Below are positions 26,095 to 38,381 of a stretch of DNA of 48,257 nucleotides, piece by piece; position 1 is the stretch's first letter; each line of letters begins with the position of its first letter. A program made the translations under genes and the position numbers. The notes beneath the pieces were generated by a model. The model had not been told where the DNA came from, did no database searches, and saw nothing but the letters and a program-made list of their open reading frames with translations. This stretch comes from an uncultured Spartobacteria bacterium (GTDB lineage: Bacteria; Verrucomicrobiota; Verrucomicrobiia; Chthoniobacterales; Chthoniobacteraceae). Where the stretch lies: contig CAIRYQ010000064.1 in NCBI GenBank assembly GCA_903882875.1, positions 1 through 48,257 on the forward strand. The letters are read 5' to 3'.

Positions 26095-26401
26095 GATCGT
26101 TTGGAAGCGGGGCGCGGAAGATGACTTGTTGCGCATTTTCGCGGAGCTGGAGGATTTCCGCGCCGGCTCCGGTGAGACCTTCACATTGAAGCTTGATGCC
26201 GTGTTGCAAAATCTCCGAAGCCATCCGGGCCTGGCGCCTGTCTTTGAACAGCCGATGCGGCGCCTTGTGGTCGGCAACACCGGCTATGGGGTCTTCTACA
26301 CGACGGAAGATCGCGGAATCATCATTCACGCTCTCATTCATCTCAGTCAGCACCCCGAAGGCATCCGGGCGAAAATCCGACGCCTGCTCGGCTTGGGTTG
26401 A
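26087..26401 (+). CDS. ParE/RelE family toxin
   Basis: The protein has 104 residues: AEIVWKRGAEDDLLRIFAEL, RAGSGETFTLKLDAVLQNLR, PMRRLVVGNTGYGVFYTTED and IIIHALIHLSQHPEGIR. This is the small alpha/beta fold of RelE/ParE toxins, which either cut mRNA at the ribosome or block gyrase; the target cannot be told from sequence. The start overlaps the antitoxin's last codons. The pair lies between two direct repeats at 25470-25704 and 26471-26705. Confidence 0.85.
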   Translation: MAEIVWKRGAEDDLLRIFAELEDFRAGSGETFTLKLDAVLQNLRSHPGLAPVFEQPMRRLVVGNTGYGVFYTTEDRGIIIHALIHLSQHPEGIRAKIRRLLGLG

Positions 26402-26470
26402 GTGAGAAAAACCGGGTGTGTCGGGGAACACCCTCATCCGGGCAGTTCCCGCGAGCGGCTTTCACGCGTC

Positions 26471-26705
26471 GTTGCCCATGCGTCCGCCGCGGCAGCCGCC
26501 TCTCCGCCGCGCAAAACCCACCGCCCGTTTTTCCACGCAAGACTTCCGCGGGAGGCTTCGGGCTCGCGCAGGGGATCGCGTTCACGGAAGAGCACGCCCT
26601 TTTCCGTTTCCGGCCATTCCTTCACCGCTTCGATGCTTTCGGCGACGGTGCTCATGGCTCGAAACTCTGGCACGCGCTTGCCGTGAGCGGCAAGGGGATG
26701 AAAAA
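26471..26705 (-). repeat. 235-bp direct repeat, copy B (with small ORF)
   Basis: This is the second copy of the segment at 25470-25704. The minus-strand frame runs from ATG 26655 to 26434 and begins MSTVAESIEAVKEWPETEK. Of the seven differences from copy A, at least five change the protein, which argues against selection on this reading frame. Outside the repeat the two flanks diverge at once. The remainder of 26402-26778 is non-coding as far as I can tell. Confidence 0.75.
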
Positions 26706-26778
26706 GCTCGGCTTCCCCGCGCAAATACGGCGTTGCCAAGTCCTCAACTTGACGGTGAGGGTGGTAGGCTCCATCTCA

Positions 26779-27897
26779 ATGAACCTATTCGACGACATTC
26801 TGCGTACGCACCGCGGGACGGCAACCCACACGGAAGATACATTTTCCTTCCTGAATCGGTCTGCTTGGCCTGCATGTGAAAGCGTGCGCAATTTACTCGA
26901 ATCCTCTTTCCGTCGGTATCCCACCTCTGAATCCGCAGAACTAAAGAGTAGGTTCAAGACCCAATTTGACTCTGCGTTTTTCGAGCTTTTCCTCCACGAA
27001 CTTCTGCTTCGATTAGGTTGCGAAGTTGCCGTGCATCCGACTCTCAATGGAACAGACGCAAAACCTGATTTTCTCGCCCGTTTCCCTCAGGGACAAGAAG
27101 TGATTGTAGAGGCGGTGCTTGCAACCGAACGCACGGAAAAAGAACGAGCGCGAGAGAATCGACTGAATGCCCTATATGATGCGATTACCAGCAAGACGAT
27201 CTCACCGAACTTCTTTATATGTCTTGGAGCAATTTCCGACCGGGATGCTATTCCGACCCCCAAGAAAATTCGGAAGTTTATCAAGGAAAGGATCGCGGGG
27301 CTTGACCCTGACGCGGTCGAACGTGCGGTTCAAAGCGGCTACCAATTACCATCATGGACTTATCGGGATGAGGGCGGTTTTGAACTCGAAATAACGGCCG
27401 TTCCAAAATCACCTGAATCTCGCGGCAATCCAAAGGCTCGCCCGATTGGAGCATATCCCGGAGAAGTAAGATGGGGCGACAGCAGAGCCATGTTGAAAAA
27501 GTCGATTGACGGTAAAGCAACGAAATACGGAGAGTTAGGCCGACCCTTCGTCATTGCCGTGAATGCAACCAGTAGATGGGGAATTGGTCGAGACGTTGTA
27601 GTAAAGGCACTCTTCGGCTCGAAAGAATTGGGTGACGAATCAGATGGGGTCTGGAACGTTTCCAGAAACACGCGGCTAAGCGGTGTGTTGGTAACTACGA
27701 TGGTGCCGTGGAGTATTCATTGCGCGCCTTTATGCCTTTACCACAACCCGTTCGCCAAGCGCTCGTGCCGAGAGATCCCTTGGAGAATCCCGCAAGCGAT
27801 TGCACGGAATTCTGGAATGCAATGGTTGGAAGGAACCAACACTCCTCAGTTGTTCGAGCTTCCGAATGACTGGCCAGGTGAGCGATTAGACGATTGA
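26779..27897 (+). CDS. Putative PD-(D/E)XK-like nuclease, lower-GC island gene
   Basis: The protein has 372 residues from ATG 26779 (MNLFDDILRTHRGT). The open frame upstream is repeat DNA and was excluded. A possible nuclease core is FFELFLHELLLRLGCEVAVH (helix), then TDAKPDFLARFPQGQEVIVEAVLATE, where Asp of KPDF and Glu of VEAVLA are spaced as in the D-x(n)-E-x-K fold, although the usual Lys is Val. The C-terminal half includes RPFVIAVNATSRWGIGRDVV. GC content is visibly lower than in neighbours (AT-rich codons such as AAA, GAA, ATT), which suggests recent transfer. No methyltransferase partner is present. It may be a defence protein; the function is unproven. Confidence 0.6.
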   Translation: MNLFDDILRTHRGTATHTEDTFSFLNRSAWPACESVRNLLESSFRRYPTSESAELKSRFKTQFDSAFFELFLHELLLRLGCEVAVHPTLNGTDAKPDFLARFPQGQEVIVEAVLATERTEKERARENRLNALYDAITSKTISPNFFICLGAISDRDAIPTPKKIRKFIKERIAGLDPDAVERAVQSGYQLPSWTYRDEGGFELEITAVPKSPESRGNPKARPIGAYPGEVRWGDSRAMLKKSIDGKATKYGELGRPFVIAVNATSRWGIGRDVVVKALFGSKELGDESDGVWNVSRNTRLSGVLVTTMVPWSIHCAPLCLYHNPFAKRSCREIPWRIPQAIARNSGMQWLEGTNTPQLFELPNDWPGERLDD

Positions 27898-29698: not shown

Positions 29699-32383
29699 AT
29701 GAATAAGCCCTTGCTCAGTGCGGTTCTGACTGCGTATGCGGCTGTTTTTTCCGCCGCACCGTCCCGTGCGCAGAGCAGCACGGAACAGCTCACCACGGCG
29801 GACGTGACACAGATCATCGCACAGGCCGCCACGCAGGCGATGCGGATTGATCCCGGCGCAATCATCGCCGTGACGGATCGCGAGGGCTTCGTGCTCGGCG
29901 TATGGGATGTGCAGGGCCGCCTGCCGAATCCGCTCCCGCCCTTTGATCTGGATTCGCCTGCCACGCTGAGAATTTACGGGCTTCTGGCCGGGGCAATCAC
30001 GCGGGCGGGCACCGCGTCATTCCTGAGCAGCGACCAGGAGGCGCTGACTTCGCGCACGGCGGGCTACATCGTCCAGCAGCACTTTCCGCCGGGGGTCTCG
30101 AACACGCCGCCGGGGCCGCTCGTCGGCGTGGGATTTTCAAATTTGTTTTTTTCCGACATCAACCGGCTCAAGCAAATCGCCAATCCGCTTGTGCCCGCAA
30201 ATCCCTTCGACCCGACGGATCTCCGCGCGTCGCTTGTCGTCGGCGACCCTAAGCGCATTTCTCCCGGTGTCCGCGGCAATCCCGTCCTGCCCGGCTCTCT
30301 GAATGATTCGCCGGGCGGAATCCCACTATTCAAGAATGGTCATCTGGTCGGCGGCATTGGCGTGACCGGGGACGGTGTCCCGACTGACCTCGCACCGGCG
30401 GCAGCGATTATCCTCGGTGAGGTACAGACTTTTGCCACGCCGGGCTATGTTCCTCTTTCACAGGCGGACTTGGATGAACTCGTCGCGCAGGCCGGCCAGA
30501 CAGGTTTCCGCCCGTCCCCTGCGATTGTCGCGACTAATGTGCTGATCAATGGCATCCGCATTCCCTATGTCTGGCAGCCTGTGGAAACCATCACGGATGT
30601 CTCGGGAGTCTTGCCCTTGGGGAGCGTCGCCGGTCACGCCGTGGACGGATTTCCCATTCAGCCGCCGCCGCCGCCTTATCCCTATCCAGTCGTCAGTTTC
30701 GGCGCTGTGGTGGGTGAACTGCGAGGGCCGGTGGTCGCCCCTGCCGGCGGGGGCTCGGGAGGTGTGATCCAAATCATTGATGATCCGCTGACCGCAATGC
30801 CGGGCAGGAGCCTCATCAACGGCACCACAAGCCGGCTGACGGCCAGTGAGGTCTGGTCCATCATCAACCGGGCTGCGCAACGGGCTGCCATCACCCGCGC
30901 AGGAATCCGGCTTCCCGTCGGTGTTTCGGCACAGGTGTTCATCACCGTCGTCAATAATCCCGACAAGGCCCTTGATCCGCCGACGGTGCTGGGGACTTTC
31001 CGCATCGGCGACGCGACCATGTTCTCATGGGATGTCGCAGTGCAAAAGGCGCGGACGGCTGTCTTTTCCTCGAATAGCCAGCTAGCCATGTCCACCAGGG
31101 CGGTGGGCTTTCTTTCGCAGCGATTCTATCCGCCAGGGATAGATGGCACGCCCTATGGCCCGACCTTTGGATTCCAGGAGGCAGTCTCACTAAAGCGCGA
31201 CCCGTCCGGGAATTTCCCTGGGAATCCCAATCTTCCAAACGGATACACCATTTTTCCCGGCGGCTTCCCGCTTTATCGCAATGGCCAGCTCATCGGCGCA
31301 ATCGGCGTCTCCGGCGATGGCGTGGATCAGGACGACATCATAGCGGCGAGCGGATGCGCGGACTTCCTTGCAGACTATGGCATCCGTGCAGACTCCTATG
31401 CCTATGCGGGCTATCGGATGCCTTATGCGAAGTTTCCGCGCAATCCTGGTATCACGGCCATGCAACCGACCAAGGCGATGGTTGGAATCGCCAGCTATGC
31501 CTCGATCCCGAGCCTGCGCGACCTCAATGGCGATGGCACGACGGACTTCCTATTTCAAAACACGGCGGGGCAACTATACGAATGGAACATGAACGGCGCG
31601 GGCGCGATGACATCCGGCGGGTATGTGTATGGAGGCGGACTCGGTGATTGGAAGCTGAGAGCCGTTGCAGACATCAATAACGACGGATTCCCAGATCTGA
31701 TCTTCCAGAATACCGCCGGGCAGATCTATGTCTGGTACCTCGATGGTTCGGGCAATCCCGTGAACTTCATAACAGGGAGCGGACTCGCATCGGGGACGCA
31801 ATTCCTCTACGGCGGCGGGCTCGGCGACTGGAAGATAGTCGCATGCGCGGACGTGAATGGCGACGGCTTCCCGGATCTTATCTTTCAAAACAATGCCGGA
31901 CAGATTTATGTCTGGCTCCTCGACGGAAGCGGGAACGCGGTGAATTTCGCAACCGGCACCGGCCTCAAGACTGGTTCCGGATATCTCTATTCGGGTGGCC
32001 TAGGAGACTGGAGGGTCGTGGCCTGTGCGGATGTGAACAATGACGGGGCTGTGGATCTGATTTTCCAAAACAGCGCCGGTCAGATCTATGCGTGGTTCCT
32101 CGACGGCACCGGCAATACGGTGAACTATTCAACGGGAGCCGGACTCAGGCCGGGCTCGAAATTCCTCTATGGAGGCGGACTCGGCGACTGGCGGATCGCG
32201 CTTTGCGCCGACGTGAATGGCGACGGACTGCCCGACCTCGTTTTCCAAAACAATGCGGGGCAGATTTACACCTGGATCCTGGACGGGAGCGGGAACGCCG
32301 TGGACTTCACGAAAGGCACGGGAGTTCTGCCGGGTTCGCGGATGATTTACCCCGGCGCGCTCGGGGACTGGCGGCTGAGATAG
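29699..32383 (+). CDS. Secreted protein with two GlcG/HbpS-like domains and five FG-GAP repeats
   Basis: The protein has 894 residues from ATG 29699; the open frame before it crosses the MITE-like element. A signal peptide ends near AAPSRAQSS. Two related domains (about 30-270 and 370-600) have GlcG/HbpS (DUF336) features: IIAQAATQAMRIDPGAIIAV with ALTSRTAGYIVQQHFPPG and FKNGHLVGGIGVTGDGV; then IINRAAQRAAITRAGIRLP, LAMSTRAVGFLSQRFYPPG and YRNGQLIGAIGVSGDGV. The 'G-G-I-G-V-S/T-G' loop is the family signature. Residues about 605-894 are five FG-GAP repeats with DxNxDG loops (DLNGDGTTDF, DINNDGFPDL, DVNGDGFPDL, DVNNDGAVDL, DVNGDGLPDL), likely calcium-binding beta-propeller blades. A haem- or ligand-sensing extracellular role is inferred. 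Confidence 0.85.
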   Translation: MNKPLLSAVLTAYAAVFSAAPSRAQSSTEQLTTADVTQIIAQAATQAMRIDPGAIIAVTDREGFVLGVWDVQGRLPNPLPPFDLDSPATLRIYGLLAGAITRAGTASFLSSDQEALTSRTAGYIVQQHFPPGVSNTPPGPLVGVGFSNLFFSDINRLKQIANPLVPANPFDPTDLRASLVVGDPKRISPGVRGNPVLPGSLNDSPGGIPLFKNGHLVGGIGVTGDGVPTDLAPAAAIILGEVQTFATPGYVPLSQADLDELVAQAGQTGFRPSPAIVATNVLINGIRIPYVWQPVETITDVSGVLPLGSVAGHAVDGFPIQPPPPPYPYPVVSFGAVVGELRGPVVAPAGGGSGGVIQIIDDPLTAMPGRSLINGTTSRLTASEVWSIINRAAQRAAITRAGIRLPVGVSAQVFITVVNNPDKALDPPTVLGTFRIGDATMFSWDVAVQKARTAVFSSNSQLAMSTRAVGFLSQRFYPPGIDGTPYGPTFGFQEAVSLKRDPSGNFPGNPNLPNGYTIFPGGFPLYRNGQLIGAIGVSGDGVDQDDIIAASGCADFLADYGIRADSYAYAGYRMPYAKFPRNPGITAMQPTKAMVGIASYASIPSLRDLNGDGTTDFLFQNTAGQLYEWNMNGAGAMTSGGYVYGGGLGDWKLRAVADINNDGFPDLIFQNTAGQIYVWYLDGSGNPVNFITGSGLASGTQFLYGGGLGDWKIVACADVNGDGFPDLIFQNNAGQIYVWLLDGSGNAVNFATGTGLKTGSGYLYSGGLGDWRVVACADVNNDGAVDLIFQNSAGQIYAWFLDGTGNTVNYSTGAGLRPGSKFLYGGGLGDWRIALCADVNGDGLPDLVFQNNAGQIYTWILDGSGNAVDFTKGTGVLPGSRMIYPGALGDWRLR

Positions 32384-32457: not shown

Positions 32458-33417
32458 ATGATCTACCGACCGCCAACTGAGCTGAAAATCTTCAGCGGCT
32501 CCGCGCACAACCTGCTTGCGCAGCGCATCGCGGACTATTGCAAGATTCCGCTCGGCAACGCCACGGTCGCATCGTTTCCCGACGGCGAGACGATGGTGAA
32601 GATCAACGAGAACATCCGCGGACGCGACGTGTTCATCGTGCAGCCGACCTGCCCGCCTACGAATCAGAACCTGATGGAGCTGCTCATCATGGTGGACGCC
32701 GCCCGGCGTGCGAGCGCGGCGCGCATCACGGCGGTCATCCCGTTTTTCGGCTATGCGCGGCAGGACAGAAAAGATCAGCCGCGCGTGCCGATCACGGCAA
32801 AGCTTGTCGCGAATCTCCTCGCGGCTTCCGGCGTGAACCGCGTGCTCACCGTGGATCTGCACGCGCAGCAGGTCGCGGGATTTTTCGACATCCCGGTGGA
32901 TCATCTTTTCGCAGCGCCCGTCATCCTCCAGTATCTCAAGTCGAAAGCCCTCAACGATCCCGTGGTCGTCTCGCCGGATGTCGGCGGATTGAAAATGGCG
33001 AACGCCTACGCGCAGGCGCTGGATGCGAGCCTCGCGATCGTCGCGAAGCGCCGCAAGAGCCCGACGGAAGTTTCCGCGACGAGCCTCATCGGCGAAGTGG
33101 ACGGGCGCTCGGTGATCCTCGTGGACGATCTCACGGAGACCGCCGGCACGCTCACCGCCGCCGCGAGATTGCTGAAGGAGCATGGCGCGAAGGAAATCAT
33201 GGCGTGCGTGAGCCACGCGGTGCTCAGCGACCTCGGCATCTCGCGCCTGAAGGACTCGTGCATCACGGAACTCGTCTGCACGAACAGCGTGCCGGTACGC
33301 GAGGGCAGCGGCATCCAGATCACGCCGCTCTGCATCGCGTCGCTTCTCGGCGAGGGCATCAGGCGCATCTACGGCGACGAATCAGTCTCCTCACTTTTCC
33401 AAATCCCCGGAGCGTAA
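32458..33417 (+). CDS. prs: Ribose-phosphate pyrophosphokinase
   Basis: The protein has 319 residues from ATG 32458. It makes phosphoribosyl pyrophosphate from ribose 5-phosphate and ATP for nucleotide, His and Trp synthesis. Family markers are FSGSAHNLLAQRIADYCKI, FPDGETMVKINENIRGRDV, VIPFFGYARQDRKDQPR, VDLHAQQVAGFFDIPVDHL and the PRPP-binding loop ILVDDLTETAGTLTAAA. VSPDVGGLKMANAYA is also typical. Length is the family norm. It heads a co-oriented block with the bL25, pth, rpsF and ssb genes, an order seen in many bacteria. Confidence 0.96.
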   Translation: MIYRPPTELKIFSGSAHNLLAQRIADYCKIPLGNATVASFPDGETMVKINENIRGRDVFIVQPTCPPTNQNLMELLIMVDAARRASAARITAVIPFFGYARQDRKDQPRVPITAKLVANLLAASGVNRVLTVDLHAQQVAGFFDIPVDHLFAAPVILQYLKSKALNDPVVVSPDVGGLKMANAYAQALDASLAIVAKRRKSPTEVSATSLIGEVDGRSVILVDDLTETAGTLTAAARLLKEHGAKEIMACVSHAVLSDLGISRLKDSCITELVCTNSVPVREGSGIQITPLCIASLLGEGIRRIYGDESVSSLFQIPGA

Positions 33418-36338: not shown

Positions 36339-38381
36339 TCACTTGCGGCCCGGCTGGTTTCGCGTCGCGCTCTGATCTCCGTTCAGCCAGTCGTCGCCAG
36401 GCTGGAGCTGGAGCTTGCCGGTCTTTGCCGCATCGGATGGGCCTTTCCATCCGAGCCTTCCGTTCAGCACGACGTCCGCCGCGGCGACGACGCCGACATT
36501 CACCGCGAGCGGATGGTTTTTCAATATGGCGCGCATGATCTGCCAGCGGCGCTCCATGACGGCGTTCACGGCCTGCACGTCCGCCTTTTTCCCGTCCTCG
36601 ATCGCGTCGGCAAGGCGGTGCGCCTCGGCGCTGACCGCCGTGAACTCCAGCCCCGCGCGCAGGAACGCCACGCGGCGGTGCGACGGCTCGTCGTTCTCCG
36701 TGGCCTTTGCCGCTGCGACGAGCGACGCGCGCAGCCCGTCAATCGTCTCCTGCGTGATTTGCGGGAATGAGCCCTTGCCGGCGACCAGGACGACGCCCTT
36801 CTCGGCGAGCAGAAAATAGCTCTTCACCTGCTCCGCACCCGCGCCGAAGCCGCTCTTGCAATAGTCATCGAGCAGCGCGTCGAAATCCTGCGCCGGGTTC
36901 CAGATCAGCCGCGCCATCGCGTAGTAGTGAAGGCCCTGCGTCGCCCAGTTGTTATAGATGCTGTCCATGTCCGTCGCCAACATGCCGTGCGATGCGAGAT
37001 AGGTGAGCGTGGCGGAATTTTCGCGCGCACGCGGGCTGAGCGCGGCGTCGCGGTAGCCGCTGTGCAGGTTGTTCGGCCGCCAATAGACACGCTTCGCGCC
37101 CGCCGCCTGCCAGCCTTTCCAGCCGTCGGCGGTGTTCGGCACGTAGCGCAGCACGAGGTTCGGGTGCAGCTTCTCTCGGACCGGCGGATCGGAGTAGTAG
37201 CTGTATGCCTCGACGAGAAAAAGCTGATCGGGCACGGCCTTCGTCACGCGCTCGGCGACGGCGTTCCAATAGTGGACGTAGCGATCGCTCAGCGCGACGT
37301 AGTCCACCTCCGTGCGTTCCGCGCCGCCGACGTGCGCGAATTGCAGGAGCTTGATCTTCGCACCATTGGGCGCGTCGAGCGCCTTGCACGCATCGCACAT
37401 GCAGAAGCTCGAGTAGCCGCCGTCATTCGGGCACAGCGAAATGGCCGGCTGCGCCTTGCCGCCGAGCCGCGCGATGATGTCGTTCGCGACGTGCTCGACG
37501 AGTCCCGCATTGGAAACACAGAGCCGCCAGCGCTCCTTCGCCTTGCTCTGGTCGCGCGTGCCATCCGGCTGCAATGCGAACCACTCGGGGTGCGCCTTTC
37601 CGTGCTCCTCCCAGCCGCCGCGCAGCCCGCCGCCCGCCGCGCCGCCGACGATGCCGATGTTCCCGCCGAGCCCGTGCCACGCTGCCCATGAGCCTTCGGA
37701 TTCCGTCTTCGATGCCGCACTTTTCGCCGCAAGATATTCGTCCATCGAGGAGCCGAGCGTCGCGAGGCCCTGGGCCGCGCCGCGCAATTCAGCAGCGGCG
37801 AAACGGATGTTCCGCTGCCCGATCGGCGGCGTGAAATGCACGTCCAGATCCGCCACGGTGATCGTGCGCTTCTTCGGGACGACCTTGCCCGTCTCGCCGG
37901 GCCACAGGCTGCGACACCCGAGCGTTTCGAGGAAATTGAACACCGCGTGCGACGTCACATCCCTTCGCTTTCCACCGGAGCCGTCGTCGCGTCCGAGCAG
38001 CGCGATCGTGTTGCCGCCCGTCTTCAGCAAAATCCCGCCCGTGCCGATGCCCTCGGTGGAGAGGCCCAGCCGGCGTGTGATGTCGCTTTCTCCGAGCAGG
38101 ATGAAGTTCTCCGCGCCGCCTTTTCCTTCGGACGCGATCACTTTGCCGCCCTCGATGCGCGCATCGTGAAGGTCGGCCTCCGTCAGCACGGGCAGGGTCG
38201 CGCCGGACATCTGCTTCACATGCTCGACGAGCGCTTTCAACGAGCCGCTCTGAGCAGCACCGCGCGCGACGACGATCGCAGCGCGCGGCTGGCCGTCCTG
38301 CGTGATGGTGAGGTCCGCCGCCGTCAGTGCCATCAGCGGCGCGAGCGACAGCGCTGCGAGGATGAATCGTGATATCTTCAT
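36339..38381 (-). CDS. DUF4838 family exported protein
   Basis: The protein has 680 residues from ATG 38381 with a signal peptide (ISRFILAALSLAPLMALTAAD). The first 150 residues resemble the N-terminal domain of glucuronidase-like enzymes (QSGSLKALVEHVKQMSGAT). DUF4838 follows: LCPNDGGYSSFCMCDACKAL, FLVEAYSYYSDPPVREKLHP, NLVLRYVPNTADGWKGW and ARLIWNPAQDFDALLDDYCK. These proteins are predicted TIM-barrel glycosidases related to alpha-glucuronidases; no activity has been shown that I know of. It is the last gene of a run of exported enzymes on the minus strand, 15 bp after the SGNH-like gene, so an operon is likely. Confidence 0.88.
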   Translation of the reverse strand: MKISRFILAALSLAPLMALTAADLTITQDGQPRAAIVVARGAAQSGSLKALVEHVKQMSGATLPVLTEADLHDARIEGGKVIASEGKGGAENFILLGESDITRRLGLSTEGIGTGGILLKTGGNTIALLGRDDGSGGKRRDVTSHAVFNFLETLGCRSLWPGETGKVVPKKRTITVADLDVHFTPPIGQRNIRFAAAELRGAAQGLATLGSSMDEYLAAKSAASKTESEGSWAAWHGLGGNIGIVGGAAGGGLRGGWEEHGKAHPEWFALQPDGTRDQSKAKERWRLCVSNAGLVEHVANDIIARLGGKAQPAISLCPNDGGYSSFCMCDACKALDAPNGAKIKLLQFAHVGGAERTEVDYVALSDRYVHYWNAVAERVTKAVPDQLFLVEAYSYYSDPPVREKLHPNLVLRYVPNTADGWKGWQAAGAKRVYWRPNNLHSGYRDAALSPRARENSATLTYLASHGMLATDMDSIYNNWATQGLHYYAMARLIWNPAQDFDALLDDYCKSGFGAGAEQVKSYFLLAEKGVVLVAGKGSFPQITQETIDGLRASLVAAAKATENDEPSHRRVAFLRAGLEFTAVSAEAHRLADAIEDGKKADVQAVNAVMERRWQIMRAILKNHPLAVNVGVVAAADVVLNGRLGWKGPSDAAKTGKLQLQPGDDWLNGDQSATRNQPGRK

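Follow-up and report, generated by a model that had tools for sequence, protein, structure and literature searches.

The gene at positions 29699 to 32383 on the plus strand of contig CAIRYQ010000064.1 (assembly GCA_903882875.1, an uncultured Spartobacteria bacterium; the window is the whole 48,257-nucleotide stretch analysed, positions 1 to 48,257) encodes a protein of 894 amino acids, followed by a stop codon, in which a signal-peptide-like stretch precedes two HbpS-like domains in tandem and an FG-GAP propeller. The order of these domains is local to the window's lineage; the discovery is the association of the tandem HbpS part with two other genes, one for a predicted beta-barrel (c1) and one for a multihaem cytochrome (c2). 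Judged by family models, proteins of this kind resemble small haem-binding or GlcG-like proteins, but in two phylum samples they occur almost one-to-one with a multihaem cytochrome, and in many genomes a barrel gene is their neighbor; this is a specific context, and it suggests a component of extracellular electron transfer that is not of the c type. With a probability of roughly 0.45, we read tandem HbpS as a secreted accessory subunit, without c-type haem, of a putative conduit across the outer membrane formed by c1 and c2. The little-understood HbpS/GlcG family thereby gains a new setting.

Among 240 genomes sampled from the Verrucomicrobiota (including the window's own genome, G000, and the related G042 and G052), tandem HbpS and c2 were both present in 7, one without the other in none, and neither in 233 at E <= 1e-20, with at most 6 and 2 candidates scored per genome in the searches (Fisher p 1.2e-13, relatedness among the genomes being ignored). 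A sample of 247 genomes from the phylum of one of the loci described below, L153 (titled Acidobacteria), gave 24 genomes with both, none with tandem HbpS only, 4 with c2 only, and 219 with neither at the same E threshold (Fisher p 1.5e-29, again ignoring relatedness); here tandem HbpS was matched in two pieces in G340, G489, and G555, and over positions 17-417 in G538. All 31 genomes with tandem HbpS in the two samples thus hold c2. Closer to the window, tandem HbpS occurs in 23 of 57 related genomes, the window's own included: 21 of the 57 have it together with c2, two have it without c2 (G009 and G033), two have c2 only (G026, which is 86% complete, and G004, where a contig end truncates the gene), and 32 have neither. 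The barrel gene c1 was found in 24 of the 57, including 22 of the 23 with tandem HbpS. Within the window's genus, eight of nine tandem HbpS genomes, all of them drafts, carry the gene apart from c1 and c2, on a separate contig (the exception is G003), and all three genes were found in eight of the nine, G009 lacking only c2. That the genes are unlinked yet kept argues against mere hitch-hiking in one cluster.

Gene neighborhoods were read in stretches of up to 10 kb on each side of tandem HbpS at 80 named loci, the best 80 of at least 545 relatives, chosen only by tandem HbpS similarity and blind to neighbors. One or both partner genes lie inside the fetched stretch at 57 of the 80 loci (49 have both, 6 only c1, and 2 only c2), and these 57 carry labels of eight phyla: Verrucomicrobia, Acidobacteria, Planctomycetota (one Phycisphaerales), Wallbacteria, Zixiibacteriota, KSB1, Nitrospira, and Duganella. 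Of the 55 loci with c1, 46 have its frame no more than 600 bp away, on the opposite strand in 39 cases and on the same strand in 7. The stretches of relatives first fetched had held c1 in 12 cases and c2 in 9, often adjoining tandem HbpS; L092 and G014, L093 and G019, and L131 and G038 seem to be the same genomes, and the named loci and the relatives are not independent sets. At the other 23 named loci, some of them on short contigs, neither gene is nearby, and 22 of the 23 genomes hold c2 elsewhere: 6 of 6 in one search, which also found it in all four positive-control genomes included, and 16 of 17 in another. In the named strain Duganella radicis KCTC 22382 (L171), a decahaem gene, tandem HbpS, c1, and c2 are consecutive on one strand; the Nitrospira-labelled L164 likewise has, directly before tandem HbpS, a gene with 10 CXXCH motifs besides c2. 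The association could be real and yet ecological only, with the genes sharing a lifestyle but having no direct functional contact, as one might expect from genes that are unlinked in some genomes and, in the phylum samples, confined to few. We consider this improbable, given close adjacency on the opposite or the same strand under eight phylum labels and the presence of c2 in 31 of 31 tandem HbpS genomes of the two samples.

Several loci are worth recording for their own sake. In a frame of the Nitrospira-labelled metagenome-assembled genome (L164:7334-9238), 10 CXXCH motifs are combined with an N-terminal match to an FHA domain, an odd pairing. At L153:12488-16833 (Acidobacteria), tandem HbpS, c1, and c2 adjoin further frames with 9, 9, 4, and 7 CXXCH motifs, which gives the look of a more complete electron-transfer chain, and some other Acidobacteria loci resemble this one. 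The tandem HbpS tree places L127 (titled Proteobacteria) and L132 (titled Klebsiella pneumoniae) inside the Verrucomicrobiota clade, and both look mislabelled.

The two partners have the features expected of a porin-cytochrome cluster, that is, an outer-membrane barrel gene adjoining a multihaem cytochrome gene, and they lie side by side in this way in the window's own genome too (contig C120), which also encodes a further protein with 10 CXXCH motifs on contig C89. The c1 protein of that genome was modelled as a beta-barrel with some 18 long strands, its best match being AlgE (E 3.1e-16); two c1 copies scanned had no Pfam match, and a c1 profile found no match among PDB sequences at E <= 1. 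The c2 protein has 10 CXXCH motifs in all nine copies first seen and in 33 of the 37 frames of at least 1200 amino acids at the named loci, three others having 9 and one having 8, and the G003 copy carries an LVIVD match. Against PDB sequences, its profile gave only weak matches, to an eight-haem nitrite reductase and to NrfB.

The first-pass annotation of the window had described this gene as encoding a secreted protein that joins two GlcG/HbpS-like domains to a propeller with five DxNxDG repeats, and the observation of a doubled HbpS protein with FG-GAP repeats is confirmed, with scores far above chance. Residues 1-25 (29699-29773) resemble, by eye, a Sec signal peptide. Domain 1 (residues 26-290, 29774-30568) carries inserted loops, and domain 2 (residues 374-585, 30818-31453) is the nearer of the two to the family profile: against a cut-off of 25 bits, PF03928 matches the first alone with 28.2 bits (E 2.1e-6), the second alone with 54.1 bits (E 2e-14), and the whole protein in two stretches with 72.7 bits (E 3.6e-20). 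The domains are 28% identical to each other (E 9e-22, from one single BLAST comparison). A G-G-I-G-V-S/T-G-D-G loop had been noted in both; the first copy has it (GGIGVTGDG at residue 218), and the second reads GAIGVSGDG at residue 533, with G-A rather than G-G. A structure predicted for residues 26-585 (mean predicted local distance difference test score, pLDDT, 92.7; predicted template modelling score, pTM, 0.94) bears out the HbpS-like fold, for which structure prediction had been named as the check; neither outcome named there as refuting, a lack of significant PF03928 hits or a structure without such a fold, was obtained. The model was built on 82 sequences: 69 of the 73 tandem HbpS frames left at the named loci once 8 of 81 partial or split ones had been set aside, together with 12 of 20 relatives and the window's own sequence. 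By structure alignment, its second half matches EfgA with Z 16.6, PduOC with 15.8, and HbpS (3fpw) with 14.8, and across EfgA, PduOC, 4nkp, HbpS, OrfY, and NahX the scores for domain 2 range from 13.9 to 16.6, in keeping with the alpha-beta2-alpha3-beta2-alpha fold. The aligned rows mostly span model residues 315-534 and barely cover domain 1, whose fold rests on a similar order of helices and strands in the model and on its BLAST similarity to domain 2.

Domain 2 retains a pocket known from the nearest of these structures. In the portion of the EfgA paper available, the proposed formaldehyde pocket consists of K57, S114, and D121 (PMC8153426), and their counterparts, mapped by hand from a sequence alignment with an inferred tag offset of 20 residues, are K450 (codon 31046-31048), S538 (31310-31312), and D545 (31331-31333), identical in 82 of 82 rows and also in the 21 rows of a separate alignment. 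In domain 1, the place of the lysine holds K or R in 78 of 82 rows, and those of the serine and the aspartate are variable. The doubled domain might be an enzyme with a small carbonyl or aromatic compound as its substrate, exchanging electrons with the cytochrome, an explanation that the conserved Lys/Ser/Asp pocket of domain 2 and the placing of family members in aldehyde-related and aromatic pathways, as far as the accessible text of those reports goes, would favor. No cofactor motif was noticed, however, and apart from the reported haem degradation by HbpS we know of no established enzyme in the HbpS/GlcG family; we therefore give this explanation no better odds than the ecological one.

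The positions that would ligate haem tell against a haem protein of the PduOC type. The haem ligand of PduOC is described, in the sections of its report to hand, as His18 of helix 1, of the bis-His type (PMC4923194); by hand mapping, its place is taken by T37 in domain 1 and by W386 in domain 2 (the latter by way of aligning the two halves), and of 82 rows, 0 and 1, respectively, have histidine at these places, so that an axial histidine of this type is lacking. No cysteine or histidine column is invariant across the 82 aligned sequences, and the sole column that is mainly histidine is H128 (70 of 82 rows). The haem-site residues of HbpS, Thr113 and Lys108, fall outside the aligned stretches, and the comparison rests on His18 of PduOC. 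Haem sensing is thus not supported by ligand conservation, and it was set aside as a lead reading because the ligand residues are wanting; the haem or redox sensing proposed in the first-pass annotation is likewise not favored.

Haem binding itself may still occur, and haem could matter in another way, if the protein bound free haem outside the cytoplasm and delivered or protected it during assembly of a multihaem cytochrome. HbpS (PMC3754957) and PduOC (PMC4923194) both bind haem, according to the parts of their reports consulted, and the partner c2 is itself a multihaem protein. The same columns speak against it, with the His18 place occupied by T37 and W386 and no histidine or cysteine invariant, H128 being incompletely conserved. 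To our knowledge, the well-studied multihaem systems need no such protein. This explanation is unlikely, though less so than any other alternative we considered. Less probable again is an extracellular redox or ligand sensor that signals the state of the acceptor as HbpS does with SenS-SenR: the fold is the same, HbpS is also secreted, and HbpS is known as a sensory component from what could be seen of its description (PMC3754957), but the 10 open reading frames scanned around the gene in the window gave no Pfam match to a kinase or regulator (seven match nothing; two-component genes were not searched at other loci), and the recurrent neighbors are c1 and c2.

Extracellular ligand capture had been the other function suggested at first pass; because the barrel and multihaem cytochrome are near-obligate companions, an accessory role in electron transfer across the outer membrane is likelier than free-standing ligand capture, and the earlier interpretation as a whole is partly supported. 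Under our preferred reading, the barrel c1 and the multihaem, mostly decahaem, LVIVD cytochrome c2 would form the conduit and the three proteins would work together. Domain 2 would hold a small ligand in the conserved Lys/Ser/Asp pocket, as in EfgA, and domain 1 may be mainly structural, since two of its three pocket places vary. The protein would be located at the cell surface or close to it, next to the cytochrome, and could present, carry, or regulate a small redox partner, for example a quinone or humic group, a flavin, a b-haem, or an aldehyde. The FG-GAP propeller may add a module for surface holding or binding in the window's lineage, where the gene lies away from c1 and c2 and is nonetheless kept. 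A bolder version, which we offer tentatively and hold to be less probable than the accessory role itself, is that tandem HbpS is the constant third subunit of an unrecognised class of conduit spread over at least eight phyla, that the non-covalent ligand of its pocket passes electrons on or gates the conduit, and that several lineages, including the window's, have added different C-terminal surface modules.

Several observations weigh against this reading. The co-occurrence p-values take no account of kinship, and the named loci are the top of a larger set ranked by similarity. Tandem HbpS occurs without c2 in G315 (the genome of L159), in G009 (86% complete), which does have c1, and in G033 (84% complete), which has neither c1 nor c2, while in G563 it was matched in its second half only. 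Conversely, the four Acidobacteria-sample genomes with c2 only match it without any tandem HbpS, although two of the four matches cover just the LVIVD part. The c1 model has a mean pLDDT of only 68 because of its low-confidence parts, being poor outside the barrel. Invariance of the pocket is inflated, as the named loci were fetched with patterns containing S538, D540, D545, and D445; since S538 and D545 are among these, K450 alone escapes this bias in the larger set, and the 21 rows of the separate alignment (A1), which came from a whole-protein search, are invariant at the pattern positions too. Finally, a figure legend of the EfgA paper gives the pocket residues as largely conserved across the HbpS/GlcG family (PMC8153426); being shared so widely, they name no ligand.

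The FG-GAP module (31517-32380), a predicted propeller, is real but is a recent, lineage-specific addition to the tandem. Its five DxNxDG motifs start at residues 608, 658, 718, 778, and 838; FG-GAP repeats score 97.5 bits over five stretches against a cut-off of 26.9, and FG-GAP_3 matches residues 602-894 alone with E 6.7e-28. Of the 23 relatives with tandem HbpS, the full fusion was found only in the window's genome and G003, 20 are without the propeller, and one (G032) breaks off where its contig ends. An assembly artefact is an unlikely source of the fusion, since G003 has it as well, 78% identical across all 894 residues. Propeller-less relatives stop near the junction and linker (residues 586-606, 31454-31516): in 19 of 21 loci read through, the open frame stops a few residues from a conserved end like RLPYAKFPRDP, these frames being 521-715 amino acids long with the upstream part counted in, and the G033 protein too ends without a propeller. 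G004 shows only a propeller end, 174 amino acids left by a contig end and 82% identical. In the tree, the window's protein and that of G003 group with each other within a 13-row group containing family members, and from this nesting we conclude that the propeller was gained late. The domain order was therefore rejected as the main novelty, with the propeller in 2 of 23 tandem HbpS relatives and absent in 20; the joining reported at first pass stands as a local feature.

Other open frames of G000, G003, and G004 carry similar propellers, with identities of 59-72% for the longer matches. Four such frames from G000 and G003 were scanned: one also has CAP, one a cadherin-like domain with InlB repeat, one a cyclophilin, and one nothing else above cut-off. 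The FG-GAP module on cadherin-like with InlB repeat, CAP, and cyclophilin proteins of these two genomes can be seen at L052:985-3273, L053:6049-8190, and L057:4566-6488. Other C-terminal additions exist, with ten open frames at the named loci extending more than 60 amino acids beyond tandem HbpS, among them an NHL propeller at L112 and an extension without a Pfam match at L095. Extensions of 274-292 amino acids with NISTR-like stretches, noticed by eye, follow tandem HbpS at L095, L096, L098, L100, L128, L142, and L160; that of L095, the only one of these scanned, has no Pfam or NCBIfam match.

Elsewhere in the window, a ribose-phosphate pyrophosphokinase gene (32458-33417, plus strand) lies downstream and serves as context only; a homologue also adjoins the propeller end of G004 (contig C268). 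Promoter and terminator scans gave results near chance. A 499-amino-acid open frame without a Pfam match (26398-27894) lies in the 2-kb block of lowest G+C in the window (0.555, against 0.632 before and 0.595 after), and a 680-amino-acid protein with DUF4838 is encoded on the minus strand at 36342-38381.

Among the papers listed by our searches, which left most subscription journals outside, we saw none linking HbpS, GlcG, or DUF336 to extracellular electron transfer; matches for DUF336 with cytochrome concerned DUF3365, and papers co-mentioning HbpS and extracellular electron transport had HbpS only in their reference lists. Several known systems nevertheless resemble parts of what is described here. 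HbpS of Streptomyces reticuli (PF03928; PDB 3fpv and 3fpw) is like the window protein in fold (Z 14.5 and 14.8) and in being secreted, and it is reported to degrade haem, as far as the consulted part of its description shows (PMC3754957); it is a single-domain octamer working with SenS-SenR, whereas the window protein has the domains in tandem in one chain, and tandem HbpS is found in company with a barrel and a multihaem cytochrome. EfgA of Methylorubrum extorquens (PDB 6bws and 6c0z) is the nearest solved structure by both fold and sequence, and domain 2 has all three of its proposed pocket residues; unlike the window protein with its signal-peptide-like start, seen by eye, EfgA is cytoplasmic and, in the part of its report available, has no conserved gene context. 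The C-terminal domain of PduO (PDB 5cx7) is like domain 2 in fold (Z 15.8), but its bis-His haem ligand His18 is absent from both domains.

The pair c1 and c2 has its own counterparts. He and colleagues described clusters of porin and multihaem cytochrome genes in freshwater Verrucomicrobia, naming strain IMCC26134, the source of L121, and in these a porin gene adjoins multihaem genes as c1 adjoins c2 (PMC5615132); the periplasmic cytochromes there have eight haem sites, and the accessible text and figure legend name no HbpS-like gene. The ext cluster of Geobacter combines the porin-like ExtI with ExtM, and the gene list in the portion seen includes no HbpS-like protein (PMC5877670). Our c2 matches the ExtM model (NF040943) distantly, with E 5.8e-19 and 67.8 bits, far under the 800-bit cut-off of this equivalog, and so falls outside it. 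MtrCAB of Shewanella, in the sources consulted in part, likewise builds a conduit from a barrel and decahaem cytochromes, as c1 and c2 may do. It differs from the system described here in that c1 has no Pfam match (two copies) and a profile with no PDB sequence match at E <= 1, and in that tandem HbpS accompanies the barrel and the cytochrome as an additional component.

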